A stretch of DNA of 64,000 bases from NCBI RefSeq assembly GCF_031127875.1, contig NZ_JARXIA010000007.1:1-64000 (forward strand). Reading direction: 5' to 3'. The notes beneath the pieces are model-generated. The model saw only the letters and a list, made by a program, of their open reading frames with translations. It searched no databases and was not told the DNA's origin. The position numbers and the translations under genes are program-made. The DNA comes from Pelagicoccus sp. SDUM812005 (GTDB lineage: Bacteria > Verrucomicrobiota > Verrucomicrobiia > Opitutales > Opitutaceae). Each line of letters starts with the position of its first letter. Within the stretch, counting starts at the first letter, position 1. Below are positions 5,464 through 39,474 of the stretch, piece after piece.

Positions 5464-5532
5464 GGTTTTCGGAATGTGCATTAAGATGCAATGTGATGCA
5501 ACTAAAGAAGCGCTTTTGAGGGGGGATGCGTG

Positions 5533-5574: not shown

Positions 5575-5612
5575 AGGGGTAGGGTTGTGTTTTGTATCTA
5601 GTTCCCGCGCGC

Positions 5613-6080: not shown

Positions 6081-6182
6081 AGGGGATATTTTGATTTGAG
6101 GTTCGGTTGAGGAGCGGGACGGGCTTGGGGGTGAAAGCCAATCTCGCGTGGGAAATCTGCGGGAAGGAAGGGAGCTCGACTT

Positions 6183-7109: not shown

Positions 7110-7259
7110 TGATTGGGTAAGTTATTGGCGGCCACAGGGTTTTCCAGAAAATAATTTTTTTACAGAGTGGGGGCTCGAAGGGGCGGCTGGCGTCGATAAT
7201 TGGCGGTATCTGGGGCGAATCGCTTAACGTTGGCTCGAGGGCGACGATAGCCTTGTTTA

Positions 7260-7748: not shown

Positions 7749-7762
7749 GGCGGGGTGCCGTT

Positions 7763-7781
7763 GCGGGCTTCGCTTGCCCGC
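7763..7781. terminator. GC-rich hairpin between convergent genes
   Basis: GCGGGC and GCCCGC form a perfect 6-bp stem around a 7-nt loop, midway between the stops of two convergent genes. No long T-run follows on either strand, so it may be a weak or factor-assisted transcript end. Confidence 0.4.
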
Positions 7782-7791
7782 TTGGGGTTCG

Positions 7792-8859
7792 CTAGTCGAG
7801 CTTGGCTTTGAAGCTCTCGGTGGGGAAGTACTTGCCGGGGCACTGGGTGTGCTTGGGGTGGATAAGGGTGTGCGTGGTGACGCGGGAAACGGGGACGTGG
7901 GTCTTGTCCATGAGGTACTCGACGAGGGCTTCGAGGGTTTCCATTTGTTTGGTGGTGGGGCGGGTCTTGGAGAAGTCGCCGACGAGGCAGATGCCGATGC
8001 TGATTTGGTTGAGGGCGTAGCTGGAGACGTGGCCGCCTTGGAGCTGCTTTTTCCAGCGGTCGCCGATGTAGAGTTCGCCGTCCTTCATGCCGCGTCCGTT
8101 GCCGATGACGAAGTGGTAGGCGAGGCCGTTTTCCATGCGGCGCTCGTTGCGGTGGTAGTTGTCCATGCCCTTGGCGGAACCTACGCGGGTGGCGCTGTGG
8201 TGGATGACGATGTGCTTCCACTGGCTGGATTTGGTGCGGATGCGGTCCAGGGTGGACTGGTCGGAGTTGGCGAGGCGCGGGCCGGTGGGAAGGGGGACGG
8301 TTCCGGGCGCCACGGGGATCCTTATGACTTGCCCGATCTTGATGCTGTTGGCCCGGCGGATGGAGTTGAGGCTGGTGAGGGTGCTGACGGTGACGCCGTA
8401 CTTCTTGGCGATGTCGGAGAGGCTGTCGCCCGAGCGCACCTTGTATTCGAGGTAGGTCGTCGGCGCGGCGGCGGCAGGGGCGGCGCCGTCGCTGGGGAGG
8501 GGAATCTTGATGACCTGTCCGACGCGGATGCGGTTGGCGTTGCCGATGGCGTTGAGGGCAGTGATGGAGCGGAGGGTGACGCCGTGCTCCTTGGCGATGT
8601 CGGAGAGGTTGTCGCCGTTGCGTATCTTGTACTCGGTGAACTGGGGGGCGGGGGCGGGGATGTTGAGCTTTTGGCCGACGGAGAGGGTGTTGGCGTTGCT
8701 GAGCTTGTTGGCGTCCTTGATGGCTTGGACGGTGACTTTGTAGGCCTGGGCGATTTCGGTGAGGGTTTCGCCTTTGCGTACGCTGTGTACCGTCGCCGCC
8801 TCGACGCTCGTGGCGAGTGAGGCGAGGAGGATGGCTGTGTATGCAAAAAGCTTATACAT
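7792..8859 (-). CDS. N-acetylmuramoyl-L-alanine amidase with three LysM domains
   Basis: 355 residues. A signal peptide (about 1-21, ending SVEA) is followed by three LysM repeats at roughly 24-68, 73-118 and 134-180, each with the typical 'GDxLSDIAKxxGVT...LNxIxxANxIxxGQxIxIP' pattern. An Amidase_2 (peptidoglycan recognition-like) zinc amidase domain follows from about 205 to the end. Zinc ligands are visible as the His pair in IVIHHSAT, and as His and Cys in the IHPKHTQCPGK tail motif. It should bind peptidoglycan glycan strands through LysM and cut the amide between MurNAc and L-Ala in the periplasm, for remodelling or recycling. It begins 11 bp after the SET-domain gene, so the two are cotranscribed. 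Confidence 0.9.
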   Translation of the reverse strand: MYKLFAYTAILLASLATSVEAATVHSVRKGETLTEIAQAYKVTVQAIKDANKLSNANTLSVGQKLNIPAPAPQFTEYKIRNGDNLSDIAKEHGVTLRSITALNAIGNANRIRVGQVIKIPLPSDGAAPAAAAPTTYLEYKVRSGDSLSDIAKKYGVTVSTLTSLNSIRRANSIKIGQVIRIPVAPGTVPLPTGPRLANSDQSTLDRIRTKSSQWKHIVIHHSATRVGSAKGMDNYHRNERRMENGLAYHFVIGNGRGMKDGELYIGDRWKKQLQGGHVSSYALNQISIGICLVGDFSKTRPTTKQMETLEALVEYLMDKTHVPVSRVTTHTLIHPKHTQCPGKYFPTESFKAKLD

Positions 8860-8870
8860 CTAAATGGGGC

Positions 8871-9446
8871 CTATGCTTTCTTTTTCTTGCTGCGTTTCTT
8901 TAGCTTCTTGAGCTTGTCCCAGTCTTCCTTGCGCACGATGTGGCCGACGCAATTGTCCGAGCCGCAGAGACAGGGGTGGTCCTTCCAATGTTCCAAGGCG
9001 TAGCCGTAGTCGAAGGTGATCTCTTCGCCTTCCTGGATGTCGCGCAGGGCGACGAGCCAGATTTCGCCGTCGACGTTTTGGGCTTCGCAGTTGGGGGAGC
9101 AGGAGTGGTTGGCGAGGCGGGCGATGTTCCACTCGAAGTTGCCGTCGATATCGGTCTTGTCGTCGAGCTCGAAGATGTAGACGGCTCCGACGTCCTCGAC
9201 GAGGGAGAGGTCGTGCTGGTCGTTGGCGCGGGCGGTCGCGGTCTTCTTCTTGACGAGCTCGCCCAGGTACTGGACGACGTACTCTCCTTCGGGGATGTCT
9301 TGGGCAGCGAAGAGGCCGTGGTTGTGGATGGCGGAGGTAGAGGTGCGGACGTAGGGAAATTCGGGTGGATTTCCTTTCTTGTCCAATCCGATGTACTTCG
9401 GCTCCTTTTTCTTGGAGGGTTTCTTGGATTTCGTTTCTTTGCCCAT
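8871..9446 (-). CDS. SET-domain protein lysine methyltransferase with post-SET cysteines
   Basis: 191 residues. The SET core runs from about residue 32 to 152: the SAIHNHGLFAAQDIPEGEYV entry motif, the NHSCSPNC AdoMet/pseudoknot motif (113-120) and the ITFDYGY motif with the catalytic Tyr near 147. A post-SET CxCx4C (C159, C161, C166) follows and, with C120, can form the zinc site of eukaryotic-type SET enzymes. Both ends are very lysine-rich, suggesting nucleic-acid contact or self-methylation. The expected reaction is AdoMet-dependent methylation of a protein lysine; bacterial SET substrates are rarely known and a DNA-binding protein would be a reasonable guess. It lies between a DUF167 gene (20 bp upstream) and the LysM amidase (11 bp downstream) in one operon. 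Confidence 0.9.
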   Translation of the reverse strand: MGKETKSKKPSKKKEPKYIGLDKKGNPPEFPYVRTSTSAIHNHGLFAAQDIPEGEYVVQYLGELVKKKTATARANDQHDLSLVEDVGAVYIFELDDKTDIDGNFEWNIARLANHSCSPNCEAQNVDGEIWLVALRDIQEGEEITFDYGYALEHWKDHPCLCGSDNCVGHIVRKEDWDKLKKLKKRSKKKKA

Positions 9447-9466
9447 GTGGTCAGGATTTGTGGAAT

Positions 9467-9751
9467 TCAGGGGCGGGGAAGCTGTTGGACTTGGCTAGAG
9501 GAGAGGCACTCGAAAGCAATCACTTTCTGCCGGCTGGTCTCGCCTCGGAGGATGCTTATCTGGTTTTTGGATACGCCGATCTGTTTGGCGAGGAAGGCGA
9601 GGAGAGCTTTGTTGGCTTTGCCGTCTTGGGCGGGGGACTGGATGCGAACCTTGAGGGTGGAGTCGTCGAGCCAGCCGGCGAATTCGTTTTTGGAGGCGTT
9701 GGGCACGACCTTGACGGAGAGGGTATGCTGGTCTGCGGGGGAACTTGGCAT
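9467..9751 (-). CDS. DUF167 (YggU-like) family protein
   Basis: 94 residues matching the small DUF167/YggU family: LSVKVVPNASKNEFAG at the N-terminus, LKVRIQSPAQDGKANKALLAFLA in the middle and a KNQISILRGETSRQKVI end. Family length is usually 85-110 residues. No biochemical function is established. The start is ATG at 9751; the open frame continues far upstream only because stop codons are rare in GC-rich DNA. It is the first gene of a three-gene operon with the SET protein and the LysM amidase. Confidence 0.85.
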   Translation of the reverse strand: MPSSPADQHTLSVKVVPNASKNEFAGWLDDSTLKVRIQSPAQDGKANKALLAFLAKQIGVSKNQISILRGETSRQKVIAFECLSSSQVQQLPRP

Positions 9752-9826
9752 GGGGAAGGCAGTCGTTATTGGGCGCTTGCGTTTCGGCGGCGAAGCAATT
9801 CTTAAAGGAAGGAGAGGGATTAGAGC

Positions 9827-10327
9827 ATGTTGAACCAAAAGGACAGAGAACCGAATTTTATCGAGAAGCGCCGGGCCGAGCCGAACTTCATCGAGAAGAA
9901 GCGCCAGTGGAAGAGCAAGATGGAGAAGCCGCTTTCGCGCCGTACCTTGCTGATGGTGCTGCCGGCTTTGATTTTGAGCGTCTTCGTAATGATGTCGGCC
10001 CCGTACCTGAAGCTGATCATGGAGCAGTTTTTGCAGGAGGGGGATGACATGAGCTACCCCGTGGAGCTGAACCTGGAGGATGCCAAGGTGGTGGAAAAGC
10101 AGGGTCCGCCGCCGGATCCGGATGCGGTGATGCGGGAGACGTACCGCAAGCAGCTGGAGGCGGAAGGCTTCGACTGGCGCAAGAAGCCGGAGATCGAGGG
10201 GCCTGACCTTCGTTTCGCGAAGGAGCAGACGCTGGAGGTGAAGCCGGTACAGGTGGAGCTTCCCAATACGATGACGGAGCTCCAAGCGGCGTCATCTTCG
10301 TCGCCGGCGGAAACTCCGTCCGAGTAG
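9827..10327 (+). CDS. Single-pass membrane protein of unknown function
   Basis: 166 residues. The N-terminal cytoplasmic part is strongly charged and holds a short internal duplication (EPNFIEKRRA then EPNFIEKKRQ, residues 8-27). A single transmembrane helix (TLLMVLPALILSVFVMMSA, about 40-58) follows, then an acidic, proline-rich, probably disordered region to the end. A good ribosome site (AAGGAAGGAGAGG at 9806-9818) supports the ATG at 9827. No family was recognised. It is divergent from the DUF167-SET-amidase operon, and its end converges on an HDOD gene across a hairpin at 10336-10357. Confidence 0.65.
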   Translation: MLNQKDREPNFIEKRRAEPNFIEKKRQWKSKMEKPLSRRTLLMVLPALILSVFVMMSAPYLKLIMEQFLQEGDDMSYPVELNLEDAKVVEKQGPPPDPDAVMRETYRKQLEAEGFDWRKKPEIEGPDLRFAKEQTLEVKPVQVELPNTMTELQAASSSSPAETPSE

Positions 10328-10335
10328 TTTTGATT

Positions 10336-10357
10336 GCTTTCCGGCTGGGCCGGAAGC
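10336..10357. terminator. Hairpin between convergent genes
   Basis: TTCCGGC-TGG-GCCGGAA with flanking GC pairs gives a compact stem 9-12 bp after the upstream stop codon. No T-run follows directly, so termination strength is uncertain. Confidence 0.4.
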
Positions 10358-10361
10358 GAGG

Positions 10362-10385
10362 GGCGCCTTAGCAGGCGCCTTAGCA
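10362..10385. repeat. 12-bp tandem duplication across an HDOD gene stop codon
   Basis: The 12-bp unit GGCGCCTTAGCA is present twice in tandem (10362-10373 and 10374-10385) and a third partial copy GGCGC follows. The minus-strand HDOD stop codon (TAA) lies inside the second unit, so the duplication leaves a second in-frame-spaced TAA just beyond the gene end. Confidence 0.8.
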
Positions 10386-11204
10386 GGCGCTGTAGTTGCC
10401 GGAGATGAGCGAGTCTGCCATGTGGAGGCTGTCGCTCACGTCGGTGACGAGGTTCCAGAGGGTTTGCTCGCCTTCGCCGAGGAGGTTGAGCACGAGCAGG
10501 TCGGGGCCGAGGGCTTGGTCGGGCAATTCGTCGACTTCGCGCACGACGCCGGTGATCCATTTGGCGAGGTTGAGCAGGCAGGCCATCTTTCCGGTGGTCT
10601 GGCAGTCTAGGGGCGAGTATTGGAAGCGGACGGGGTCGACCAGGGCGCTGGGCAAGCCCCAGTCGCTGAGCAGGTTGAAGCAGAGGCCGGAATGGTTGAA
10701 CTTCTTGAGGCGGTTGTTGAGTCGGCTGCTGCTGCTTTGCGATTCGTCTGGAGCGGCGGTGTCGATGACGGCTTCCGCGAGGGAGTGGACGAGGCCGATG
10801 GTGTAGGCCCGTTGCTTGTCCAAATTGTGCTTTTCGGCGAGCGTTTCCATGCAGACGGCGGCGGTGATGGCTCGCTTCCAGTGGTCGGAGGAGTAGCAGA
10901 GGTCTTCGCGGCTGGAGGGGTAGGAGTAGAGGCCGAGCAGGTCGTACATGCGCTGGAAGCCGATGGCGGTGACGGCTTCCTCGATGCAGAGGTAGCCTTC
11001 CGCTTTTTTGTCCGCCATGAGGTTCGCTTCGCGGAGGATGCGGGTGGCGAGCAGGGGCTCGAGGCGGATGAGCGGGAGAATCTCGTCGGGGTTGACGTTG
11101 CCTTCGGCGACGATGCTGCGGAGGCTTTTGCCGATGCGGGATGCAGGGGCCATGAGTTCGAACTGTTGCTGCAGGTCGCTGACTGTTGGATTGACTGGGT
11201 CCAT
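10380..11204 (-). CDS. HDOD domain protein
   Basis: 274 residues. The N-terminal ~190 residues fit the HDOD fold (an HD-like helical domain without the catalytic HD pair): RIGKSLRSIVAEGNVNPDEILPLIRLEPLLATRILREAN is the usual opening, followed by the AVTAIGFQRMYDLLGL helix and a TIGLVHSLAEAVID segment where active HD proteins carry His-Asp. HDOD proteins act in signalling and regulation, often beside nucleotide second messengers or chemotaxis. It lies 178 bp downstream of a second, longer HDOD gene in the same direction, so the two may work together or have arisen by duplication. Partner and signal are unknown. Confidence 0.8.
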   Translation of the reverse strand: MDPVNPTVSDLQQQFELMAPASRIGKSLRSIVAEGNVNPDEILPLIRLEPLLATRILREANLMADKKAEGYLCIEEAVTAIGFQRMYDLLGLYSYPSSREDLCYSSDHWKRAITAAVCMETLAEKHNLDKQRAYTIGLVHSLAEAVIDTAAPDESQSSSSRLNNRLKKFNHSGLCFNLLSDWGLPSALVDPVRFQYSPLDCQTTGKMACLLNLAKWITGVVREVDELPDQALGPDLLVLNLLGEGEQTLWNLVTDVSDSLHMADSLISGNYSAC

Positions 11205-28109: not shown

Positions 28110-29525
28110 ATGAAAAAACGTAAGATTCTCTTTTTACCCCACGGCAATCTGCAGTATTCCCAGTTAGATCCTTCCAAGCGCGGCTGGGTCGCGCAGCAGT
28201 CCTACGAAAAGCTTTTCGAACTGGTGGCTTCCGACGACCGCTACCGCATTGCCTTCGAGGCGAGCGGGAAGACGCTCGAGATCATGGCGGAGCAGTATCC
28301 AAAATCTCTCGACAAGTTGAAAGCCCTCGTGGAGGAAGGTCGTATTGAGGGGGTGGCGTCGCCGCATACCCATATCATGTTGTCCAATATCGATCCCGAG
28401 ATCGGGTTTCACAGCTTGTTGGACGGATTGGACTCCTGGGAGCGCTACGTGGGAGTGCGGCCGGTCACGGGCTGGAATCCCGAATGCAGCTGGGCGGAGT
28501 ACTTGCCGTCGATTTACCGGGAAGCGGGTTTCAAGAATTTGATTGGCGACGCGGACAGCCTTTTCTTGTCCTTCGACGAGATCCGCGAAGCGACGGGACT
28601 GCGTTACGACGTGCGCAGCCATAGCAACAAGAACAAGCTCTTCCGCATCGAAGACTATATTGCGGACAAGCCCGACTTCCTCCGCTTGCTCACGAATCCG
28701 ACCGAACTTTCCAATGGCCTGCGCTTGATCTTCCGTTCCGACATGATGGCCAATCCGATGCTTTGGTACTTGATGGGGGCGACGGAGGGGAATCGCGAGA
28801 CGCCGGTGCAGCTGGAGGAGATCCGCGAAAGCCTCGAGCGTTGGTCGCAGCGCGTGGAGGAGACCGGCAGCTTTATCATGCCCTACGCGGAGGATGCCGA
28901 GTATATCGGCACCAGCGCCTATTTTTACGTGAAGCAGTTTAACGAAGCGCGTTTCTTCGAGCCGATGCCGGAGAGCGTCGATCGCTTCCAGGAGCTGCTG
29001 GACCTGTCTCTAGATCTTGGATACGAGATGGGAACGCCTGCCGAGGTGATCGATGCGAGCGAGGAGGTGATCAAGTCGGACCAAGTTTACAAGGTGGACA
29101 ATGGCATCGCCTGGCACGGTGGCACCGCCAAGGCCTGGGCCAATACGGTGTACTCTCGCATCATGGATCCGGTGTGCCGGGATATCCATGACGGGCTGCG
29201 CCGCGTGAGCCAGCGTTTGGGAACGGATTTCGGCACTATGCGCGACGACCTGCAGGCGGCTCGCCGCTTGCTGACGAACGCGTGGGTTTCCGATAGCCGT
29301 TGGCCGCCGCTGCCGACCACTCCGGGCCGTTTCAACGTGAAGGAGTCGATCGCCGACTTGAAGGAGGCGAACACCATGCTGGAGAACGTGATCGTGACGG
29401 TAGGCTTGCTCGAGCTGAAGTCGCTCTACAGTCCGGAGCTGATCCGCACGCAAATCGCCAGCATCGAGGAAGAGCTGATGGCGATGGACTATTTCGAGGA
29501 AAGCGGGGTTCCCGCTAAGGTTTAG
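28110..29525 (+). CDS. GH57-like glycoside hydrolase
   Basis: 471 residues without a signal peptide. The start, LFLPHGNLQYSQLDP (His11, Asn13, Gln15), fits motif 1 of the seven-stranded barrel enzymes of GH57 and relatives, and GWNPECSWAEYLPSIY (about 121-136) fits motif 2 with its 'WxPE' element. A helical C-terminal region follows. GH57 members act on alpha-glucans (amylases, glucanotransferases, branching enzymes) or alpha-galactans; the substrate cannot be told here, and a GH38-like or deacetylase-related barrel is possible. ATG at 28110 is the natural start. A very strong terminator follows at 29561. It is divergent from the PL9-like lyase, suggesting shared control. Confidence 0.6.
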   Translation: MKKRKILFLPHGNLQYSQLDPSKRGWVAQQSYEKLFELVASDDRYRIAFEASGKTLEIMAEQYPKSLDKLKALVEEGRIEGVASPHTHIMLSNIDPEIGFHSLLDGLDSWERYVGVRPVTGWNPECSWAEYLPSIYREAGFKNLIGDADSLFLSFDEIREATGLRYDVRSHSNKNKLFRIEDYIADKPDFLRLLTNPTELSNGLRLIFRSDMMANPMLWYLMGATEGNRETPVQLEEIRESLERWSQRVEETGSFIMPYAEDAEYIGTSAYFYVKQFNEARFFEPMPESVDRFQELLDLSLDLGYEMGTPAEVIDASEEVIKSDQVYKVDNGIAWHGGTAKAWANTVYSRIMDPVCRDIHDGLRRVSQRLGTDFGTMRDDLQAARRLLTNAWVSDSRWPPLPTTPGRFNVKESIADLKEANTMLENVIVTVGLLELKSLYSPELIRTQIASIEEELMAMDYFEESGVPAKV

Positions 29526-30187
29526 AACTTTTTGTTAGTGTAGTTCTAGTTGAATGGGGAAGCCCACGCTTGGGGAAGCGTGGGCTTTTTCGTGCTTTTG
29601 GGTTGAAGGGGGGGCGAAGCGTTAGTTTCGGATCGTTGACTTGTGTTCTTTTGCCCACGACGGAGCGACGCGGAGATAGCGAAGCAATGAGCACGAATGG
29701 GGATGGGATGATTGGGAATGTGTTTTTTGAACCACAGATGACACTGATTGTCACAGATCGTGGATACGGTTGAGTCCTGAGGGAGTGGGGGTCGCCGCAG
29801 GGAGGTCCTGTTCTGCGTATTGTCTATGCAGGTTTCCCGCTAAGAGACCTTTAGTAGCTGTTGCGTAGATCTCCGTTGTTTTCTGGTAGCTTTTGCCGGA
29901 GGCGGCAGTTGTTAAGTACTGCTTAATAACTGAGGCTCCCTCCAGTTCGTTGTCGCTGAAGACGCTGATTTGAGACGGGAACGGAGAGGCCGTATAGCTC
30001 CGCCATCATCTTCTACGTTAGCCAGATGTTCTTGTCCTCGCAGCGGCATTTCGATGCTGCCTTCCGAACTTGTGGCAAAGCTCAGGAGATCCGCCGTGGA
30101 GACGCTAGTGAACGAGGCTTATTTGTTTTAACCACAGATAGCTCGGATTGTTTTGATGGATCTTATGTTTTCAGGAGATGTCCTTTC
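29526..30187. other. Gene-free stretch with terminator and decayed repeat words
   Basis: About 660 bp between the GH57-like gene and the end of the defence operon. After the terminator at 29561-29590 it holds no plausible gene. Scattered repeat-like words are visible: CCCACGACGGAGCGACGCGG near 29654, and AACCACAGAT at both 29732 and 30130, of a kind seen in many related genomes as degenerate repeats. An imperfect hairpin, GTTGTTAAG with CTTAATAAC, lies at 29909-29931. It looks like old junction or insertion debris at the island edge. Confidence 0.5.
29561..29590 (+). terminator. Strong terminator after the GH57-like gene
   Basis: AGCCCACGCTT and AAGCGTGGGCT form a perfect 11-bp stem with a GGGG loop, followed by TTTTC. 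It is 36 bp after the stop codon. Confidence 0.92.
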
Positions 30188-31378
30188 TCAGGATCCTTGA
30201 ATCTGTCGGTGTTGGTCTCGGATGACTTTCAAGCGGCGCACTAAATCGTCGTAAGTCATGATATCGACAACGTTGCGATACTTGCGGCGAATGACTTCGA
30301 AGTCGTTCTTCTGATCATTTGTGAGGTTGTTGTCTCGGCCCATGATGATCAAACCCGTTGGATTCACTATTTTGATCTCGAGGCCTTGGGGAAGCTTCGA
30401 TCCATACTTCTCGTTGAGCTTTCTCTCGCCAAGTTCTCCCCATCGATTGAAGTGGTAGAGGTACTTCTCAACCTGCATGATAGTCCCTGCGAGCTCACGC
30501 TGTGGGACATGATTTCCGCGATAGTCGTTGGGAGTTACAGAGTGTTGGTCGGAAGGTTTCTTAATTTCGATGACGTCTATAAAGCCGGAGGCGTCGACTA
30601 ATAGAAAATCAACGCGACGTGTGGTATTGGCCCAGCTATCGTTGACAGGGCCTTCTTTGAAGGCGCGGATGTAGCGGGGAAAGAGAAGGAGAACGACTTG
30701 GAGAATTTCATCCTGCCATCGCGCTTCATTGTAACTCTCGCCGTTCTCAAGCATGGTCTCGATCTTTTCAGTAAGATCGGCAAACTTTTGAAATTCGTAA
30801 GGAGCATAGCTTAGCTGAGGCTCGCTACCTTGATATGAGTCCTTGGTGTTGAGGTAGTTTTCGTATCGCACCTTGTAATCGTTTTCGATGGGGAGGTGGT
30901 TTCGTATGATGGACGAAATGCGAGCCTTGGCGTAGCTGTTGAGCTCGTACGTGTTGGGGAATTTTCGAAGGAGTAGTCGGAACACTTCCGTCGGAAGTGC
31001 TCCTTCGGCGTCTCCACCAATGGTGAGTTGGGAAAGACCAAACTCGTTGAAGCGGCGGAAGATGGCGATGTTGCGCTCCGCCGCGAATATTTTGCGTTCG
31101 AGGTTTATCGAGGTGTGGATTGCTAGGTCGAAGTTTATGCCTAGTACTTCTCGATCGATGCGGAAGTAGGAATTGGCTATCGTCCCGATGCGGAATACGA
31201 AGCGATCGCTGTCTTCGTCCTCGATCCATTGCTCGTTGGTAACGAAAAAGATGCGAGCGCTGAGGCTCGCTTCGCCATTTTCTGCGAGTAGCTCACGTAT
31301 CCAGCTCCCGTCTTGGTTTTCGGGCATGTAATCCAGGAGTAAGCCCGTTCCATCCTCTGTCTGCTCGAAGCGAATCAT
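30188..31378 (-). CDS. sduA: Shedu-family nuclease (SduA, DUF4263), last gene of a type I restriction operon
   Basis: 396 residues. The C-terminal half carries the Shedu DUF4263 nuclease: a WQDEILQVVLLLFP helix (about 221-234), RRVDFLLVDASGFIDVIEIKKPS with Asp257 and E271-I-K273 as the PD-(D/E)xK catalytic set, and the ELAGTIMQVEKYLYHFNRW helix (about 293-311). The N-terminal ~190 residues are the variable sensing part of the family (FVFRIGTIANSYFRID, ERNIAIFRRFNEFG). Shedu proteins defend against phage by DNA cleavage. The ATG overlaps the hsdS stop by 4 bp (ATGA), so translation is coupled to the restriction-modification operon. It usually occurs alone; this tight coupling is unusual as far as I know. 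Confidence 0.85.
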   Translation of the reverse strand: MIRFEQTEDGTGLLLDYMPENQDGSWIRELLAENGEASLSARIFFVTNEQWIEDEDSDRFVFRIGTIANSYFRIDREVLGINFDLAIHTSINLERKIFAAERNIAIFRRFNEFGLSQLTIGGDAEGALPTEVFRLLLRKFPNTYELNSYAKARISSIIRNHLPIENDYKVRYENYLNTKDSYQGSEPQLSYAPYEFQKFADLTEKIETMLENGESYNEARWQDEILQVVLLLFPRYIRAFKEGPVNDSWANTTRRVDFLLVDASGFIDVIEIKKPSDQHSVTPNDYRGNHVPQRELAGTIMQVEKYLYHFNRWGELGERKLNEKYGSKLPQGLEIKIVNPTGLIIMGRDNNLTNDQKNDFEVIRRKYRNVVDIMTYDDLVRRLKVIRDQHRQIQGS

Positions 31379-32694
31379 GGGGCGAAGGCTTCTTTAAGGA
31401 CGGCTTGCAGGAGTTGGTTGGCGTGGGCTTGGGAGTGTTCGATTTCCGCTTCCAGCTCGCGGCAAGTTTCCATCAAGGCATCCACGCGTTCGACGATGAC
31501 CGCTTGCTCGGCGAGGGGTGGAAGGGGGATCGGAACTGTTCGGACATTGGGTAGATTTAGTCCGGGCTTATCACCCTTTGAATAGCTCAGTAGCACTCCG
31601 CGAGGTCCGTTGTCTGTGGTTAAGCAGCGGTGAATCCAAACGGACAACTTGGTTTCCATCAATCGGGTAAGGGCGATGTGCTGACTAACATAAGCCTCTT
31701 CGAGTTGCTGGTCGACTCGAGCGGTTTTTCCGCAGTTTCCGCCTGTTATCGTTACTAAAATATCATCAGGCTGAACTAAGGTCCGTTGGCCTTCCATTTT
31801 ATCTGGGAGATCAACAAAGGCGGATTGCGACAGATCCAAGAGATCGGTCTTAATGTTCTGAGCTCGGATGAAGAGGGATCCTTGATTTGCGTAGTAAGCT
31901 TTCCAACCTCGTGAACCACTTGTAACAAATTCAGTTAGTTCACCTAACCTGCACCACTCCCAGCTGTCAGGAATCTCGCAGGTGATCTCTTCGCTGGTGA
32001 CCTTAGGTAGCGGCTTCTCTTTGCGGATTTTCTTTTCGGCGACGAGGCGGGCTTTTTCGACTTGGATGCGTTTGAGGAGTTCGCTGGCTGGCTCGACGTC
32101 GAGATTCTCAGCCCGCCAGTCGGCGGTGAGCTTTCCTTGTATCGCTTCTTGCAGGATGGCTTGCTTGAGCTTCTTGAGAAGGGATCGTTGGTGGTCGATC
32201 TCTTGATCCATACCAAGCTCTTCTATTGTACGAAGCTTCTCAACGAATCCTTGCTGTCCAGCTAGATCGAGATCGGGTAGCTCTACTTGATTTAGTAGAT
32301 TTTTAGGAGTCAGATACTTGCGGTTGGTTGTTCCGGACGAAAGCTTCGTTATGTAATCGGCGAAGGCTGGAATTCTGAAGAGAGTCTCCAAATAGGTTGG
32401 GTCGACTTTTTCCAAATTTATATCGGCAAGAGCCATGTTGCCTGATGCAAGAGTGCCTGCATGGGTAGAATGAGTTACTCCGAATGCTCCATTTTTGGTA
32501 TCAACTTTGCACCACATCAGTTGATTGGATTCTATGACTTGATACGTACGCATCGTAAGCTCCTGCCCCAGGACTCGCCTCCTTACCACTACTCCTTTGC
32601 CGTAGTTTTGGACCCCTGATATCTCGTAAGACTTTTCGTCTTCGATCTCGATGGTGTTTTTGTTTCTCAGCTTGATTGCGTCACCAAGTTTCAT
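31375..32694 (-). CDS. hsdS: Type I restriction-modification specificity subunit HsdS
   Basis: 439 residues with the two-half layout of HsdS. The first target-recognition domain is about 1-155, followed by a conserved helix (DQEIDHQRSLLKKLKQAILQEAIQGKL, about 178-204). The second domain is about 240-400, beginning IPDSWEWCRLGEL and ending LPPLAEQAVIVERVDALMETCRELEAEI, the closing coiled coil. These helices are the spacers that dock two HsdM subunits, and the domains read a bipartite DNA site that cannot be predicted by eye. It overlaps both hsdM (4 bp) and the Shedu gene (4 bp). Confidence 0.93.
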   Translation of the reverse strand: MKLGDAIKLRNKNTIEIEDEKSYEISGVQNYGKGVVVRRRVLGQELTMRTYQVIESNQLMWCKVDTKNGAFGVTHSTHAGTLASGNMALADINLEKVDPTYLETLFRIPAFADYITKLSSGTTNRKYLTPKNLLNQVELPDLDLAGQQGFVEKLRTIEELGMDQEIDHQRSLLKKLKQAILQEAIQGKLTADWRAENLDVEPASELLKRIQVEKARLVAEKKIRKEKPLPKVTSEEITCEIPDSWEWCRLGELTEFVTSGSRGWKAYYANQGSLFIRAQNIKTDLLDLSQSAFVDLPDKMEGQRTLVQPDDILVTITGGNCGKTARVDQQLEEAYVSQHIALTRLMETKLSVWIHRCLTTDNGPRGVLLSYSKGDKPGLNLPNVRTVPIPLPPLAEQAVIVERVDALMETCRELEAEIEHSQAHANQLLQAVLKEAFAP

Positions 32695-34127
32695 CCGTGA
32701 AGAAGCGTTCTGATTTTTGAAATTATCGCTGCGGTCTTCTCTTGAGACTTCGTAAGGGAATCTAACACGTCATTGACCGACAAGTCGGACTCAGACTCTT
32801 CCTCGTGTGGATTCTTCACGTCCAGGTCGAAGCCCTTTTTGAGGTCTTTGACGGAGACTTTCCAAGCGCGGTCTGACTTTTTGCGTTTGTGCCACCATTT
32901 GATCATGGGGGCGAACTCGTCGAATTGGATGGGCTTGGTCTTGGAGTAGCTTTTTTGCCCTTCGGGGAGGCGGTGCTCGTAGTACCAGATGTCTTTGGTG
33001 GGCGTGCCTTTTTCGAAAAATAATAGGTTTGTGGATACAGTGGCGGGATGGAAGGTGGACTGCGGGAGGCGGACGATGGTGTGCAGGTTGCAGTCGGTGA
33101 GCAGCTTTTCGCGGATGCGTTCCTTGTATCCATCTCCGGTGATACAGCCGTCGGGCAGGACGATGGCGCAGCGGCCGCCGGGCTTGAGGAGCTGGAGCAT
33201 GAGAATGACGAAGAGGTCGGCGGATTCGCGACAGCGGAAGGCGGCGGGAAAGTTGGTCTCGACGCCTTCGGCGATGCCGGCTCCAAAGGGCGGATTGGCA
33301 AGGATGACTTCGACTTGGTCGCGCGGTCCGATGGAGGCGTATTCGGTCTTGAGGCTGTCTCGGTAGTGGTAGTCGGGCACGTCGATACCGTGCAGGATGA
33401 GATTGGTGAGGCCGAGAACGTAGGCGACGGGCTTGTATTCCCAGCCGGTGACAGTTTTCTGAAGCGTGGCTTCGTCGGGCAGGTCGTGGACTTCGTTGGC
33501 CCGGATGTAGTCGATAGCGGCGGAAAGGAAGCCGCCGGTGCCTGCTGCGGGGTCGAGTACGTGCTCGCCTAGACGAGGATTGGTCATCTGGGTCATGAGC
33601 TGGGTGATGGCCCGCGGGGTGTAGTATTCGCCTTTGTTGCCGGCGTCGCGCAGCTCGATGAGGATGGACTCGTAGATGGTGCCGAAGATATGGCGGTCGT
33701 CGCTGTTGTTGAAATCGAAGCCATTGAGCTGGTTGATCACCTTGCGCATGGCGTAGCCGGACTTCATGTAGTTGTTTAGTCCGTCGAAGACTTCGCGTAC
33801 CAGGGCGGCGCGCTCGGGGGCTTTGGAAGACTGGAGGTTCTTGAGTTTGACGAAGAGGCCTTCAGTGGGATGGTCGATGAAGAGGCGGAGCTCGTCGCCG
33901 GTGATGCCTTCGGGATCGGTGGCCCAGTTTCGCCACTGGAATTGCTCGGGAATGATGGACTGGTAGCCCTTTCGGATGTACTCTAACTCTTGGTCCTTCT
34001 CGTCGAGGATTTTGAGAAAGAGCATCCAGCCTAGCTGCTCCAGGCGTTGAGCGTCGCCGGAGATGCCTTGGTCTTCGTTCCGCATGATGTTGCGGACGTT
34101 TTTGATGATGGAGGAAATGTTGGGCAT
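32691..34127 (-). CDS. hsdM: Type I restriction-modification methyltransferase HsdM
   Basis: 478 residues. The HsdM N-terminal helical domain (IIKNVRNIMRNEDQGISGDAQ) leads into an N6-adenine methyltransferase: VLDPAAGTGGFLSAAIDYI as the AdoMet motif, and the catalytic NPPFG near residue 277 (in VILANPPFGAGIAEG). A C-terminal helical tail ends in KIRTLLHG. It methylates adenine in the site read by HsdS, protecting host DNA and forming the core of the restriction complex. The ATG at 34127 is clear. Upstream lies 145 bp to the Abi/HEPN gene. Confidence 0.95.
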   Translation of the reverse strand: MPNISSIIKNVRNIMRNEDQGISGDAQRLEQLGWMLFLKILDEKDQELEYIRKGYQSIIPEQFQWRNWATDPEGITGDELRLFIDHPTEGLFVKLKNLQSSKAPERAALVREVFDGLNNYMKSGYAMRKVINQLNGFDFNNSDDRHIFGTIYESILIELRDAGNKGEYYTPRAITQLMTQMTNPRLGEHVLDPAAGTGGFLSAAIDYIRANEVHDLPDEATLQKTVTGWEYKPVAYVLGLTNLILHGIDVPDYHYRDSLKTEYASIGPRDQVEVILANPPFGAGIAEGVETNFPAAFRCRESADLFVILMLQLLKPGGRCAIVLPDGCITGDGYKERIREKLLTDCNLHTIVRLPQSTFHPATVSTNLLFFEKGTPTKDIWYYEHRLPEGQKSYSKTKPIQFDEFAPMIKWWHKRKKSDRAWKVSVKDLKKGFDLDVKNPHEEESESDLSVNDVLDSLTKSQEKTAAIISKIRTLLHG

Positions 34128-34272
34128 GAAATGGAGTGTTCGCGAAAGGGTGGGCTTCTAGCGAATTTTCAGACAGGGGAAACTATAATCTGGCCGCGAT
34201 GGGTGGAGTGTTGGAGCAAGAGCTTGAGATGTTCGCTACGGTGACGCTGGCTAAAGCTCAGCGCTACGTGCA

Positions 34273-34944
34273 TCAGAGGCTTTCGATCTTTTTTAGCCAC
34301 GGAACGAGTCCTGCGGCACGGACGGCGTCGAAACGGTCTAGACTCTTTGCGTAGTTGGCTAGTTCGGGGCAGATCCATCGTGTGATGGTTGCAATGTGTT
34401 GGTGCCGCAGATCGAGGTCTTTCCAATGGAGGATGCGCTCGTGGTGGAAAACTCGGTTGCGCAAGTCCCTGATTGCGAGCCAGCGGAGGTCTAGCTTAGT
34501 GGTGTTGCGCTCTGCCTTGGGGGCGTGCTGAAAGACCGTTTTTGCTATGTGGTGGCTGAGACCGGTGCGGTTGTGCTGTTTGTTAAAGAAGCCAGTCCAG
34601 AAGCCAAAGCTCAGCTCAGCGACTATGCGTCCGGGACTGGTTGGCTTACGGAGTTTTTGTAGAGTGATCTTAGCCTCTTGGACTTTGGTGTTTTGCCAAG
34701 GAAGGAGTTTCGCAGCTCCGTCGTACCAGTTTTCGGCTCCGAAGCGGTTTGTGAAGGAAGTGTGTATGGCATTGCGGAGGGCGATTTCCGCAAACTGAAG
34801 CGAGGGGTAGAGGGCTTCTGCGAGAGCCATGTTGAGAGCGTAGCGAGCTAGGGCGGTTTTCTCGTCGGCTCCGTCTTGACGATAGGCGTCCAGCCGTTCG
34901 GTATGCAGGGCGGCTTCGATCTGAGGAAAGGAAGGTGGGGTCAT
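34273..34944 (-). CDS. Abi-like (Abi_2/AbiD-AbiF type) HEPN protein
   Basis: 223 residues. It follows the Abi_2-family pattern: YALNMALAEALYPSLQFAEIALRNAIH, GRIVAELSFGFWTGFF and IRDLRNRVFHHERI. The last holds the HEPN ribonuclease motif R-x4-H (R162-NRVF-H167), the usual catalytic site of abortive-infection RNases. Such proteins arrest the cell by cleaving RNA after phage attack. The gene is inserted between hsdR and hsdM in the same direction, where type I systems often host accessory genes. The trigger and any antitoxin are unknown; the restriction system itself may act as the guard or trigger. Confidence 0.8.
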   Translation of the reverse strand: MTPPSFPQIEAALHTERLDAYRQDGADEKTALARYALNMALAEALYPSLQFAEIALRNAIHTSFTNRFGAENWYDGAAKLLPWQNTKVQEAKITLQKLRKPTSPGRIVAELSFGFWTGFFNKQHNRTGLSHHIAKTVFQHAPKAERNTTKLDLRWLAIRDLRNRVFHHERILHWKDLDLRHQHIATITRWICPELANYAKSLDRFDAVRAAGLVPWLKKIESL

Positions 34945-35020
34945 GCGGAGGGGACGAGTAGCTCAGAAGAATTCAATTGACTACGAGGTCAATAGGTCGA
35001 TGTTAGAGATCGTACACCTC

Positions 35021-35071
35021 GGAACCCCTTCCTTCGCTCAATGTAGCGAATAGGCGCCGGGGTTTCTTTTT
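35021..35071. repeat. Nested inverted repeat between hsdR and the Abi/HEPN gene
   Basis: Outer arms GGAACCCC (35021-35028) and GGGGTTTC (35059-35066) enclose an inner pair TTCGCT/AGCGAA (35033-35050), followed by five T on the plus strand. The T-run points away from the operon, so a terminator for minus-strand hsdR is unlikely; it may be an RNA structure within the polycistronic transcript or the scar of an insertion. Confidence 0.5.
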
Positions 35072-35104
35072 GCCCAGGCGAAACGAAGCGAATCAATCTA
35101 CGAG

Positions 35105-37492
35105 TCATGATGCTTCGTACAGGGCTGTTGCCAGAGTGTGGACCGCCTCGTCGTAACCGTTTTTGCCCCCGAAGGCTTTGATGATCTCCGGAGCTGTGCC
35201 GAGGGTGTTGATGGGTCGGAGGGTAATGACTGCGGGGTCTTCTAGGTCGGACAAGCCCTCGTCGGCATACTTGTCTAGCAGCCCGTCTAGGACGGAACGG
35301 GCGAGTTCCCCATAGCGAGTGAAGTAGTCGCGTTTGCGAACGTTGTCGGCGCGTTCGCGGCGGGTAAGCGGTTTTTGCTCGAAGGCGATGTGGCAAATTA
35401 GGTCGAACGGTTCGAAGTCGGCTCCAACTTCTTCCTGGAGAGCGGAGAAGAATATTCCTTTGGTCTCCAGTTCTTCGACGATAGCTCGCTTGCGGTCAGC
35501 GTTCTTCCAAGACGTCAGGAATTCGTCGAGCGAGGCGTAGGAGCGTCGGATGCTGTTTCGAGTGTAGTCGAGGAGGCGTTCGGTGATGATCTTGCCATCG
35601 GGGCCCATGTACATGACCCGCTCTTTTACGACCATGACGTCGATCCCGTTTACGGTGACTTTGCGGCGTCGAGGGTAGTCGTTGGCGTCTTCGGCGAGGA
35701 TGGAGATATCGGGGCGTTCGGAATCTGCGAAGTCAACTGCGTCACCCGATACATCGTCGATGATCTCCTCTTCGCTCGCCTCACTGTCCGCTCCTGAAAT
35801 GTTGTCTTGCTCGGAGGTGTCCTTGATGCGCACCGGATCGCCGTCGAATTCGGGGTCAGCGAAGAGAGCGGTGACGTTTCGAAAATCCATGATGGTGAAG
35901 TAGTGCTTACCGAAGTCTTCGTTGATGCGGGTACCGCGTCCAATGATCTGCTTGAACTCGGTCATGGATTTGATCTCGGAGTCGAGCACGATGAGCTTGC
36001 AGGTCTGAGCGTCGACGCCAGTGGTCATGAGCTTGGAGGTGGTGGCGATGACGGGGTAGCGCTCGGAAGGGCTGATAAAGGCATCGAGGTGCGCTTTGCC
36101 GATGGCGTTGTCGCCTGTGATTTGCATGACGTATTTGGAATTCTGCGACACGAGATCTTGATTGGCGTTTGCTAGCTCGGTCCGCATACCTTCCGCGTGC
36201 TCGATATCGGTGCAGAAGACGATTGTCTTAGAGAAGCGGTCGCTGCCCTTGAGGAATTCGGTGATTTTCTTGGCTACGGTTTGGCGGCGTTCTTCGACGA
36301 CGATGTTTTTGTCAAAGTCGCTGCGGTTGTAGACGCGGTCCTCGACTTCGTCGCCATCCTTATCCTTGTACCCTGCGGGTGGTCTCCAACCTTCGGCATC
36401 GATGTCGAGGGTGACTTTGATCACTTTGTATGGAGCTAGGAATCCATCTTCGATGCCTTGTTTTAACGAATAGGTGTAGAGTGGGTCGCCGAAGTATTCT
36501 GAACTGGATACGTCCTCGGTTTCTTTGGGGGTGGCGGTGAGGCCGACGTGAGTGGCTTTCGAAAAATAGTTCAGAATCTCCCGCCACTTGCTGTTGTCCC
36601 TGGCACTGCCGCGATGGCATTCGTCGATGACGACTAGATCGAAAAAGTCGGGACTGAACTGCTTGTAAGCGTCGGTGTCGTTGTTGTCCGATAGCCCTTG
36701 GTATAGGGCGAGGTAGATGTTGTAAGCAGTATCGATCTGCTTCTTCTTGATGACCGTCATGGCCTCCTTGAAATGCCGGAAGTCCCCACGTACTGTTTGG
36801 TCGATGAGAGCTGTACGGTCGGCAAGGAAGAGGATGCGTTTCTTAACGCCACTTTTCCAAAGACGGTAAATGATCTGAAATGCGGTGTAGGTTTTGCCGG
36901 TGCCGGTGGCCATCACAAGCAGATGACGATTGTCGCCTTCGTTGCGGGCGATGGCGTTGACCGTGCGATTGACGGCAATCTGCTGGTAGTAGCGAGGGGT
37001 TCGCTTTGGGGTGTCGATGTAGTAGTCTTGAGAAGCGATCGATTCGGCCTCGGAAGTGATGTTTTTGGCTATGCAGTACTTTCGCCAAAGAGCTTCGGGC
37101 GAGGGAAAGGATTCGAGGCTCAGCTCGGATTCAATAGGGCTATCTGACGCCGTCTTGTCGTGGAAGGCGAAGGCGTCGCCGTTGCTGCTGAAGACAAAAG
37201 GAATGTCTAAGGTCTCAGCGTAACCTAGCGCTTGCTGGAGACCTGCTTTGACGGAATGCTTGTTGTCCTTCGCCTCAATTACAGCGAGTGGGATGTTCGG
37301 TTTGTAGTAGAGTATGTAGTCCGCGCGTTTTCGTTCGCCACGAGTATGAAGCTTGCCTCGAACATAGATGCGTCCATCGGTGAACGAGACCTCTTCGCGT
37401 ATTTGTGATGCGTTGTCCCAACCCGCTGCGATGATGCTAGGCGTAATGAACTTGGTGCAGATGTCGCGTTCGCTGAGGGACTTTTTGTTCAT
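35105..37492 (-). CDS. hsdR: Type I restriction endonuclease subunit HsdR
   Basis: 795 residues. The N-terminal nuclease has RADYILYYKPNIPLAVIEAKDNKH with Asp58 and E73-A-K75 (PD-(D/E)xK). The SF2 translocase shows Walker A MATGTGKT (about 194-201), VVIDECH (DEAH-like, 290-293), THVGLTATP and the later QIIGRGTR motif VI. The C-terminal helical domain carries the HsdM contact region. It translocates and cuts DNA lacking the system's methylation. The start is ATG at 37492. It is first in the operon, 160 bp before the Abi/HEPN gene. Size and motifs are typical and intact. Confidence 0.95.
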   Translation of the reverse strand: MNKKSLSERDICTKFITPSIIAAGWDNASQIREEVSFTDGRIYVRGKLHTRGERKRADYILYYKPNIPLAVIEAKDNKHSVKAGLQQALGYAETLDIPFVFSSNGDAFAFHDKTASDSPIESELSLESFPSPEALWRKYCIAKNITSEAESIASQDYYIDTPKRTPRYYQQIAVNRTVNAIARNEGDNRHLLVMATGTGKTYTAFQIIYRLWKSGVKKRILFLADRTALIDQTVRGDFRHFKEAMTVIKKKQIDTAYNIYLALYQGLSDNNDTDAYKQFSPDFFDLVVIDECHRGSARDNSKWREILNYFSKATHVGLTATPKETEDVSSSEYFGDPLYTYSLKQGIEDGFLAPYKVIKVTLDIDAEGWRPPAGYKDKDGDEVEDRVYNRSDFDKNIVVEERRQTVAKKITEFLKGSDRFSKTIVFCTDIEHAEGMRTELANANQDLVSQNSKYVMQITGDNAIGKAHLDAFISPSERYPVIATTSKLMTTGVDAQTCKLIVLDSEIKSMTEFKQIIGRGTRINEDFGKHYFTIMDFRNVTALFADPEFDGDPVRIKDTSEQDNISGADSEASEEEIIDDVSGDAVDFADSERPDISILAEDANDYPRRRKVTVNGIDVMVVKERVMYMGPDGKIITERLLDYTRNSIRRSYASLDEFLTSWKNADRKRAIVEELETKGIFFSALQEEVGADFEPFDLICHIAFEQKPLTRRERADNVRKRDYFTRYGELARSVLDGLLDKYADEGLSDLEDPAVITLRPINTLGTAPEIIKAFGGKNGYDEAVHTLATALYEAS

Positions 37493-38010
37493 ACCACGGT
37501 CGCGAGGTTGTCGGTGGAGTTTTTTGGGGAAGAGGTTTTTCTACTGGCAGGCATCGGAAGGGATGGAGGAAGCGGGCGCGATCGCAAATGGGGCTGTGGT
37601 AGGCTAGAGTTGTTCGAGGACAGGGATTTTAATGCGCGACGTAAAAGTCTGCGGCAATGGTAAAAGCGCCTATGGTGCCAATATCAGGAAAGCAGCTAGG
37701 TAGCGGGCTGCTGGCGTCAGCGGCGCGAAGGGCACTCTCCGTTGAATATCTGGAGGAGTGCGGGGGCGAGCGTGCTCTTGATGTGCCAGATCAGCGTCTG
37801 GGCGAAAGGCCGCAGGTAGTGCGGATTTTGGATACGGAGCTAGGTGAGGCAGGTGGGAACAGGCGTGTTCGGCGAACTCGCTCTACCTCGTAGGGCGGGA
37901 CTTGCGCTGCCTGGGCATAGCTTTGCAGTGCCACGGGATTGTAAGGCCCGCCTACTGTTTATGGCGCTAGGCTGGATTTGGGGAGTCGCGGCGTGCTTAC
38001 CGTTTTTCTT
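37493..38010. other. Gene-free gap at the edge of the defence operon
   Basis: About 520 bp containing the hsdR promoter and the end of the transporter transcript. Short plus-strand reading frames here have no homology-like motifs or ribosome sites and are not called. An imperfect inverted repeat, GTAGGGCGGG (37890-37899) with GCCCGCCTAC (37946-37955), is visible and shares the word TAGGGCGGGAC with the palindromic elements at 42136 and 58047. Confidence 0.4.
37890..37955. repeat. Imperfect inverted repeat related to REP-like elements
   Basis: Arms of ten bases match with mismatches around a 46-nt spacer. Its outer word TAGGGCGGGAC is the reverse complement of a segment inside the 105-bp elements at 42136-42239 and 58047-58151, so all three may belong to one family of small palindromic elements. 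Confidence 0.4.
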
Positions 38011-39474
38011 TTATACGACCTTGCCGCGGCGTTCTTCTAGCTCGCCTTTGAGTCGTATGACGCCGTCGTCGGTAAGTGGATACTTGCGGGCGATGATGTA
38101 GGCGATGGTCAAGAGAGCGGCTGGAATCAGCGAGTAGCAGAGGCGGATGGAGAGGATGGCTCCGTCGCCTTGGTCGGCGCCTTTGGAGACGTCGAAGCCG
38201 GTGATGTCGAGCATGGAGTTGGAGACGAGCAGGGTGCCGGTGAGGGCGACCTTTTCGATCCAGTTGGCCACGGCGGCGTACATGCCTTCGCGGCGCATGC
38301 CGGTGCTGAGCTCGTCGTAGTCGGCGGTGTCGGCCTTCATGGGGTCGATGAGGACCCAGAACCCGGAGAAGGCGGGCGAGAGGGCCAGCATGGTCACGAA
38401 CTGCAGCCAGGGGGCGTGGGGCGTGTAGCTGAAGAATTTGGAGGCGGAGGCGACGATGCCGATGAGCAGGCACCATTGCAGGACCTTGAGCTTGCCGACG
38501 CGGTTGGCGATCTTGCTGACGATGGGGACGGCGACGAGGCCGGCGACGCCGTAGAGGGTCATGGCGAGGGCGTGGTACTTGGCGCCTTGTTCGGTGTCAC
38601 CGGGGAAGACGTGGTAGCTGTTCACGTAGATGCCCAGGATGTTGACCATGCTGGTGCCGATGAGCATGCCGACGACGATGGAGACGAGGCAGCGGAAGGG
38701 GCGGTTGGCGAGGGTGAGCTTAACGGCTTTGACGAGCTTTACCTTTTGCTGCTGGGCGGCTCGTTTCTCGAAGCGTTCTCGGGTGTTGAGCACGGCGGGA
38801 ATGGCTAGGAGAATGAAGAGTCCTCCGATGATGAGTCCGACGGCCCGGAAGCCGGATATGGTGCTGTCGAAGAAGTCGAGCTGGGCGATGACGAAGATCC
38901 AGGGGGCGATGAAGTTGATGATCTTCGTGCACATGGCACGGTAGGTCTGGATGCGGAGGCGTTCGCTCGTGTCGGAGCTGAGCTCGTATCCAAGCGTCAA
39001 ATACGGAACGCCGTAGACCGTAAACGCGGTAAAGAACATCAGGCAGGTGACCAGGAAGTAGATGAAGGTCGCAGCTTCTCCCCAGTCTATGGGGACGAGC
39101 CACATGATGGGAAAGGTGATGGCGCAGAGCACGGCGCCGAGGGCGATGAAGGGGCGCCGCCGTCCCCAGCGGGTGCGGGTATTGTCGCTGAGGGAGCCCA
39201 TCAGAGGATCGGTGAAGCCGTCCCAGAGGCGTACGATGGCCATGACGGTTCCGACGAAGGAGGGGCTGAGGCCGAGGGTAAGGTTGTAGAGCGGGTTGGC
39301 GATTTGCATGACCCCGCTGGAGCCTAGCATGAAGGGGATGGTGCCGATGGCGTAGGACAGCTTTTCCTTGAGGGAGGTGCGGTACTCGGCGTTGGGCTTC
39401 GCTTGCTCTGAGTGGCTGCCGTTGGGAGCCGAGGTGGCGTCCGCGCTGGGGGAATCGGGGTTTTCTGGCTTCAT
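38011..39474 (-). CDS. GPH-type MFS sugar:cation symporter
   Basis: 487 residues and about twelve transmembrane helices. The GPH (MelB-like) sequence is clear: YAIGTIPFMLGSSGVMQIANPLYNLTLGLSP, then RLWDGFTDPLMGSLSDNTRTRWGRRRPFI, which holds the Asp-rich cation site and the conserved loop between helices 2 and 3. The substrate is probably a mono- or oligosaccharide, perhaps a uronide. The gene lies 105 bp downstream of a lacI-like gene in the same direction, so the repressor likely controls it. It is the inner-membrane import step of the large polysaccharide locus. Confidence 0.88.
   Translation of the reverse strand: MKPENPDSPSADATSAPNGSHSEQAKPNAEYRTSLKEKLSYAIGTIPFMLGSSGVMQIANPLYNLTLGLSPSFVGTVMAIVRLWDGFTDPLMGSLSDNTRTRWGRRRPFIALGAVLCAITFPIMWLVPIDWGEAATFIYFLVTCLMFFTAFTVYGVPYLTLGYELSSDTSERLRIQTYRAMCTKIINFIAPWIFVIAQLDFFDSTISGFRAVGLIIGGLFILLAIPAVLNTRERFEKRAAQQQKVKLVKAVKLTLANRPFRCLVSIVVGMLIGTSMVNILGIYVNSYHVFPGDTEQGAKYHALAMTLYGVAGLVAVPIVSKIANRVGKLKVLQWCLLIGIVASASKFFSYTPHAPWLQFVTMLALSPAFSGFWVLIDPMKADTADYDELSTGMRREGMYAAVANWIEKVALTGTLLVSNSMLDITGFDVSKGADQGDGAILSIRLCYSLIPAALLTIAYIIARKYPLTDDGVIRLKGELEERRGKVV

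Follow-up and report, generated by a model that had tools for sequence, protein, structure and literature searches.

Two kinds of described system bear most closely on the defence operon reported here, which lies in a 64,000-nucleotide stretch of Pelagicoccus sp. SDUM812005 (contig NZ_JARXIA010000007.1, positions 1 to 64,000; the whole stretch is called the window): type I restriction-modification (RM) systems and the Shedu nuclease. The substrate of type I enzymes is unmethylated DNA, which they translocate and cleave (PMC12255303; here and below, PMC identifiers refer to excerpts of the articles). Escherichia coli SduA (EcSduA; a type I Shedu, PDB 8ps4, 8ps5 and 8ps6) is a tetramer whose N-terminal clamp binds DNA ends and which nicks at a fixed distance; its autoinhibition is lifted by DNA-end binding with no partner involved, and Shedu systems are toxic on heterologous expression (PMC12904381). 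In the window, a Shedu gene of this type is coupled to hsdS, the specificity gene of a type I system, and the junction recurs in other bacteria. The reading we put forward, with confidence that is evenly balanced, is that Shedu serves the type I system as an accessory nuclease, co-translated with HsdS and directed at the DNA ends that the restriction complex produces.

That defence genes become embedded in type I operons is already known. PrrC with EcoPrrI (PMC12707154), DarTG2 of the RptR island (PMC12255303) and TgvAB of VPI-2 (PMC12409362) all resemble the window in this respect, but the embedded element is an anticodon nuclease effector, a toxin-antitoxin system and a type IV enzyme, respectively. 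At one Pseudomonas hotspot another defence system is embedded in most type I systems, in line with a trend reported earlier by others (PMC12629846). The link between Shedu and BREX is known as well: PD-(D/E)XK and Shedu nucleases are described as auxiliary or backup enzymes of BREX, and Gu et al. 2025 are credited with the earlier link to Shedu (PMC12839542). Those operons share with ours an accessory or backup nuclease of the same Shedu clade in a modification-based operon, but the host system is BREX and not type I RM. Shedu has further been named as an end-sensing system alongside Gabija (PMC12407980), and a Shedu with a GHKL domain has been described (PMC12137116). Excerpts of PMC8565338, PMC12988326 and PMC9148166 hold nothing on a link between hsd and Shedu, and the literature searched (titles, abstract openings and some passages) yielded no report of hsdS-Shedu or gajAB-Shedu operons, although earlier publication is possible.

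Layout of the operon and the Shedu protein

A preliminary description of this DNA listed five genes running in one direction, with 4-bp overlaps on both sides of hsdS. Coordinates and profile matches bear out the genes, and the overlaps can be read directly in the sequence:

35105..37492, minus strand: hsdR, type I restriction translocase/nuclease of the EcoAI/FtnUII family, 795 amino acids (NF046051, motifs)
34273..34944, minus strand: Abi_2/PD-T4-5-like HEPN-type gene, 223 amino acids (Abi_2 and PD-T4-5 profiles, R-N-x3-H motif)
32691..34127, minus strand: hsdM, N6-adenine methyltransferase subunit with an NPPF motif, 478 amino acids (N6_Mtase, motif)
32691..32694, minus strand: ATGA overlap of the hsdM stop and the hsdS start, 4 bp (sequence)
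31375..32694, minus strand: hsdS, specificity subunit, 439 amino acids (Methylase_S, PADLOC Specificity_I)
31375..31378, minus strand: ATGA overlap of the hsdS stop and the Shedu start, 4 bp (sequence; same overlap in locus L011)
30188..31378, minus strand: Shedu nuclease of the E. coli SduA type, 396 amino acids, D257/E271/K273/Q302 (SduA_C, 8ps4, model)

The order on the minus strand is thus hsdR, Abi-like gene, hsdM, hsdS, Shedu. Tight packing is limited to hsdM-hsdS-Shedu; gaps of 160 bp and 145 bp separate the Abi-like gene from hsdR and hsdM, respectively, and one transcript may possibly cover all five genes. A scan, which is weak evidence, found 17 terminator-like sites, two of them on the minus strand and neither of these two in the gaps flanking the Abi-like gene. 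Scans of the window for sigma-70 promoters and for tRNAs found none.

HsdR falls in the EcoAI/FtnUII family (NF046051, 1159 bits against a cut-off of 550), which we take to be type IB, and carries D...ExK, GTGKT and DECH motifs by pattern. HsdM matches Pfam N6_Mtase at 207 bits, and HsdS matches Pfam Methylase_S at 32 bits over the second half of the protein only and PADLOC Specificity_I at 216 bits over residues 174-436. The reading frames of hsdR, hsdM and hsdS are all present and uninterrupted, and by gene content the cluster appears to be a complete type I RM system. It resembles EcoAI/FtnUII systems in its HsdR and in the order hsdR-hsdM-hsdS, and differs from them in the additional Abi gene between hsdR and hsdM and in the Shedu gene at its 3' end.

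The Shedu protein matches Pfam SduA_C/DUF4263 (PF14082; 123.2 bits, cut-off 27) and, over its full length (residues 1-389), PADLOC SduA (470 bits). Sequence searches align residues 52-384 with EcSduA (8ps4, E 2e-80) and recover the isolated N-terminal domain (8ps6, phmmer E 7.8e-28). Residues D257, E271 and Q302 are present in all 87 rows of an alignment of relatives and K273 in 85; by the motif, we take these four to be the catalytic PD-(D/E)XK residues. An AlphaFold model built from 35 input sequences (mean predicted local distance difference test score 90.5, predicted template modelling (TM) score 0.58) has DNA-bound SduA (8ps5) as its top Foldseek match over the whole chain (E 2.8e-40, TM 0.65, root-mean-square deviation (rmsd) 7.8 Å), and the clamp domain 8ps6 is the third match (E 7.1e-14, TM 0.76 by target length, rmsd 8.6 Å). 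The N-terminal DNA-end clamp is thereby predicted to be present, and the likeness to EcSduA covers both clamp and PD-(D/E)XK core, in sequence and in fold. This fits the end-sensing trigger that had been suggested for Shedu in this operon. The difference is that EcSduA is described as a single-protein system, whereas the window Shedu is translationally coupled to hsdS.

Recurrence of Shedu beside type I genes and in other host systems

The 87 loci compared here are the best 80 of 188 relatives found by scanning a seven-sequence alignment against species genomes, plus the window, genome G128 (L002) and five plasmid matches; a match in phage P2-EC31 (single gene) and a partial match in G229 were left out. 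They are a non-random sample, the search alignment having already contained L002 and the BREX-linked L006. Neighbouring genes were called with a simple frame caller and 12 home-made profiles, some of whose names (e.g., brxC) are tentative and were assigned partly by position, and chosen members were checked with Pfam and PADLOC. Shedu stands directly behind hsdS in five of the 87 loci, with gaps of -4 to +3 bp:

Window: gap -4 (ATGA)
L011, Luteolibacter marinus: gap -4 (ATGA); order hsdR, PDC-S26 nuclease, hsdM, hsdS, Shedu
G128 (L002/L090): gap +3; order hsdM, hsdS, Shedu, hsdR, GmrSD_N gene
L020: gap +3; HsdR 2.5 kb downstream
L024: gap +1

Further overlaps are seen in L090, of 4 bp between hsdM and hsdS and of 8 bp between Shedu and hsdR. 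The claim that Shedu is co-operonic with hsdS thus extends beyond this strain, and the possibility that the coupling is confined to it is rejected by L011, G128, L020 and L024. In three further loci (L053, L067 and L075) Shedu lies 8-11 bp behind hsdR, and in L014, L063 and L068 hsd genes or fragments are close to Shedu without adjoining it. A single 851-amino-acid frame in L063 (5514-8069), perhaps a fusion, scores on the profiles of both hsdM and hsdS and is followed by two short-to-medium genes and then Shedu.

Counted from the side of hsdS, five of the seven hsdS genes in the collected neighbourhoods are directly upstream of Shedu, or five of eight if the L063 frame is included. Nine frames matched the hsdS profile, two of which are not in the count: L001, a duplicate of the window, and the L063 frame, whose hsdM score is the higher; L011, whose Shedu frame is absent from the gene list, was added by hand (raising the count from six to seven). 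A binomial estimate for five of seven gives 3e-5 if one gene in 14.4 is expected to be so placed and 1.8e-4 at one in 10, figures that are rough and ignore both relatedness and the choice of loci. The genomic association of Shedu with hsdS is well supported on these sequence comparisons, and because the coupling is both recurrent and position-specific, it has probably been selected.

The type I genes on the other side of this junction are diverse. Window and L011 share 50% identity in HsdM, 57% in HsdR and 24% in HsdS; every other pair of the five loci shows 16-26% identity in HsdM and HsdR and 14-21% in HsdS, so that the hsd genes form about four groups with 14-26% identity between groups. 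The five Shedus are 40-60% identical to one another, so one kind of Shedu has reached the same place in several unrelated systems. Four of the five fall in one clade (support 100/97) together with the Shedus of L014, L068, L010, L012 and L013, L024 lies elsewhere, and the hsdR-adjacent L053, L067 and L075 form a separate clade (100/100). By parsimony, Shedu would have become associated with type I systems on at least three separate occasions, and in the clade of the window the RM partner appears to have been swapped and the hsdS-Shedu junction found again.

In the phylum of the window, the SduA-like type is rare (three of 387 genomes); the two full-length copies, in the window and G128, are both linked to hsdS. 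A second phylum sample added little: the type occurs there in four of 398 genomes, including the genome used as the centre of the sample, and two of these matches are weak. PF14082 as a whole matches in 10 of the 387 genomes, seven times above cut-off.

Across the sample, Shedu is found within or close to a recognisable multi-gene operon, for defence or RM, in 41 of the 87 loci, and type I systems are one of several hosts. In 13 loci gajA and gajB are followed by Shedu, and in 12 of these Shedu starts -1 to 14 bp from gajB:

gajA-gajB-Shedu, 12 loci, nearly all Bacteroidota: L032, L035, L036, L037, L045, L046, L047, L049, L056, L057, L059, L087 (Shedu at about position 10001 of the record; at 9404 in L036 and 6188 in L056)

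In the thirteenth, L031, the Shedu frame was found short, with its start further inside. PADLOC identified GajA (764 bits) and GajB (869 bits) in L035, as well as gajB in L047; the remaining Gabija loci were identified by profile. Gabija-like arrangements are also seen in L026, with Shedu 2 bp behind a UvrD helicase, and in L085, with Shedu 218 bp upstream of gajAB. Shedu lies inside BREX operons in 10 loci, all 10 with a pglZ match, and the record of L006 is annotated as BREX-1. In four Flavobacteriaceae loci (L069, L077, L078 and L079; about 3600-11000) Shedu lies 10-27 bp behind a condensin-like operon, L069 and L078 having the same Shedu. L078, the one of the four that was tested, has an MksE match (78.8 bits). 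Another gene there resembles JetD only weakly (19 bits, under the cut-off), the remaining two had no match, and a complete Wadjet/Mks set is not established. A 1083-amino-acid condensin-like gene had no match in PADLOC or Pfam. Finally, in L010 (5593-11209) a methyltransferase, a NurA-like and a HerA-like gene precede Shedu, which lies 80 bp behind the last.

These arrangements lead us to propose, tentatively and with confidence that falls short of even, that SduA-type Shedu is a portable accessory nuclease joining several unrelated motor-driven machines. These would be type I RM, where the motor is the HsdR translocase; Gabija, where it is the UvrD helicase; BREX; condensins of the Mks/Wadjet-like kind; and the methyltransferase-NurA-HerA set. 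The Shedu gene would be placed beside a core subunit, and its product would cut at DNA ends or structures either generated or uncovered by those motors. The window would be one case.

The Abi-like gene and its island

The gene between hsdR and hsdM matches Pfam Abi_2 at 29.1 bits, barely over the cut-off of 25.6, and PADLOC PD-T4-5 at 39.6 bits; a sequence search against solved structures found no match for its protein. Residues 162-167 read RNRVFH, an R-N-x3-H (R-x4-H) motif that is present in eight of nine homologues and that, in this family, would make the protein an RNase. Homologues occur in nine of 387 genomes, that of the window included. Three of the nine lie inside hsd operons: the window's, and those of L129 and L131, which stand between hsdM and hsdS. 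In L133 the homologue adjoins an N6_N4 methylase, so the Abi_2 homologue appears to be RM-associated in its own right.

The cluster is flanked by a GH57-type gene (28110-29525) and an MFS_2 transporter (38011-39474), and closely similar copies of both are found on one contig in two of seven genomes of the same genus. Comparison with these outlines an island:

About 29830..37994, no strand: island present in the window, absent at the homologous site of G797 (same-genus comparison)

In G797 (L124) about 150 bp separate the stretches that match the flanks, that is, the site is empty. The G+C content of the island is 0.50-0.57 against about 0.60 beyond, but it is also low at 47-58 kb, hence the drop is not specific. 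In G792 (L125), the site that corresponds to window positions 29500-38000 holds an 867-amino-acid NB-ARC gene and an Abi gene identical to that of the window at 191 of 223 residues. The ratio of nonsynonymous to synonymous divergence (dN 0.09, dS 0.88) points to purifying selection on this Abi gene, which is flanked by pieces matching the 5' end of hsdM, the 3' end of hsdR and another part of hsdR. In the simplest reading, G792 lost the RM genes, and probably Shedu, and kept the Abi gene. The HEPN gene is thus separable from the RM genes, which it outlives in G792, and the suggestion that it is an obligate third layer of the system does not hold. The site itself looks like a defence hotspot, being empty in G797 and occupied in G792 by NB-ARC and Abi genes with hsdR and hsdM scars.

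A 230-bp stretch behind Shedu, at window positions 29839-30070, is shared at 83% with G792, unmatched in G797, and resembles a gene relic. By eye we take it to be RhuM-like; Pfam found nothing in its 63-amino-acid G792 counterpart.

Possible joint action and its alternatives

Joint action of Hsd and Shedu is plausible by analogy with the described enzymes. HsdM and HsdS would methylate host sites, sparing the host, and HsdR with HsdM and HsdS would translocate on and break unmodified phage DNA. EcSduA binds ends and type I enzymes cleave unmethylated DNA, so ends made by HsdR, or the injected linear ends, could be the substrate of Shedu. A Shedu oligomer would clamp these new or injected ends and nick beside them, and the nicks would block repair, recombination or replication of the fragments. 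Co-translation with HsdS may serve dosage or assembly, and the HEPN gene would be a back-up module that shares the hotspot but works independently.

Several observations weigh against this proposal. First, 46 of the 87 relatives are not assigned to a defence or RM operon (their neighbours are partly annotated, and eight have less than 1 kb on one side), and plasmid Shedus of Rahnella, Paraburkholderia, Jannaschia and Sphingomonas have no adjoining hsd, Gabija or BREX gene, so SduA-type Shedu does not need Hsd. The preliminary view that Shedu is mainly a stand-alone system is to this extent right for the clade, but the 41 loci in or near operons and the published BREX link show it to be half the picture. 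Second, four of the five hsdS-linked Shedus share one clade, which implies few independent joinings of Shedu to hsdS. The hsdS-adjacent label is as scattered on the Shedu tree as a shuffled one (five changes; 500 of 500 shuffles as low), and all five changes are forced by well-supported (starred) branches; such changes do not separate gain from loss. Third, the nearest relative of the window Shedu, that of L010 (70% identical), is not linked to hsd, and loci of other Shedu subfamilies in the same phylum showed no hsd, gaj or pgl match in nine loci of 2.8-3.5 kb each, the window and G128 excluded. Finally, the fold matches of the Shedu model have high rmsd (7.8-8.6 Å), and the placing of its domains is uncertain.

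The strongest alternative, which we consider somewhat doubtful and yet a serious contender, is that hsd operons are insertion hotspots and that Shedu is a passenger that inserted behind hsdS. It would then do no more than share expression with hsdS, and each of the three systems would protect independently. The cargo of the hsdR-hsdM gap does vary, from an Abi/HEPN gene in the window to a PDC-S26 nuclease in L011; the hsd operon of L067 carries pAgo and that of L090 a GmrSD_N gene, and the HEPN gene survives alone in G792. E. coli DarTG2 lies between hsdS and hsdR at a site called a potential recombination hotspot (PMC12255303), and the Pseudomonas embedding described above is of the same kind. 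The position of Shedu, however, is fixed at the hsdS end (-4 to +3 bp) across several hsd families and at the gajB end in 12 loci, which would be more regular than random cargo.

It has also to be considered that the Hsd complex keeps Shedu quiet and that a phage anti-restriction protein frees it, as with PrrC, which is encoded within an hsd locus and becomes active once T4 Stp has inhibited EcoPrrI (PMC12707154). The toxicity of Shedu in a foreign host suggests that restraint is needed, and co-translation would match the amounts of HsdS and Shedu. We nevertheless regard such guarding as improbable, given that the autoinhibition of EcSduA is relieved by DNA ends alone, partner-free (PMC12904381), and that relatives exist without adjoining Hsd. 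The 14-24% identity of HsdS among the five loci likewise argues against a conserved HsdS-Shedu interface, though specificity domains always vary.

That Shedu does the cutting in place of HsdR, which the preliminary description had offered as one option, with HsdS and HsdM as guides, would suit the tight coupling of Shedu to hsdS and not hsdR in five loci, but is rejected as very improbable, since an HsdR with a nuclease-like D...ExK-like motif is present by pattern in all five (in L020, 2.5 kb downstream) and Shedu lies behind hsdR itself in L053, L067 and L075. With HsdR and HsdM motifs both found, by pattern, in all five loci, Shedu appears to add to HsdR and not to replace it.

Most studies of Shedu treat it as a lone gene. 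For one clade, its recurring couplings to hsdS, hsdR, gajB and condensin-like genes suggest an answer, open to testing, to how phage ends could be discriminated from those of the host: the substrate of Shedu may be made or marked by a partner that acts on foreign DNA. Defence annotation would list the parts of such operons as separate systems, and the same-genus comparison points to the HEPN gene as the separable part. That a few other bacteria also pair Shedu with restriction systems, and unrelated ones, suggests that it is an add-on nuclease that can be reused, and the broader pattern, which takes in Gabija, BREX and condensin-like operons, deserves a census.

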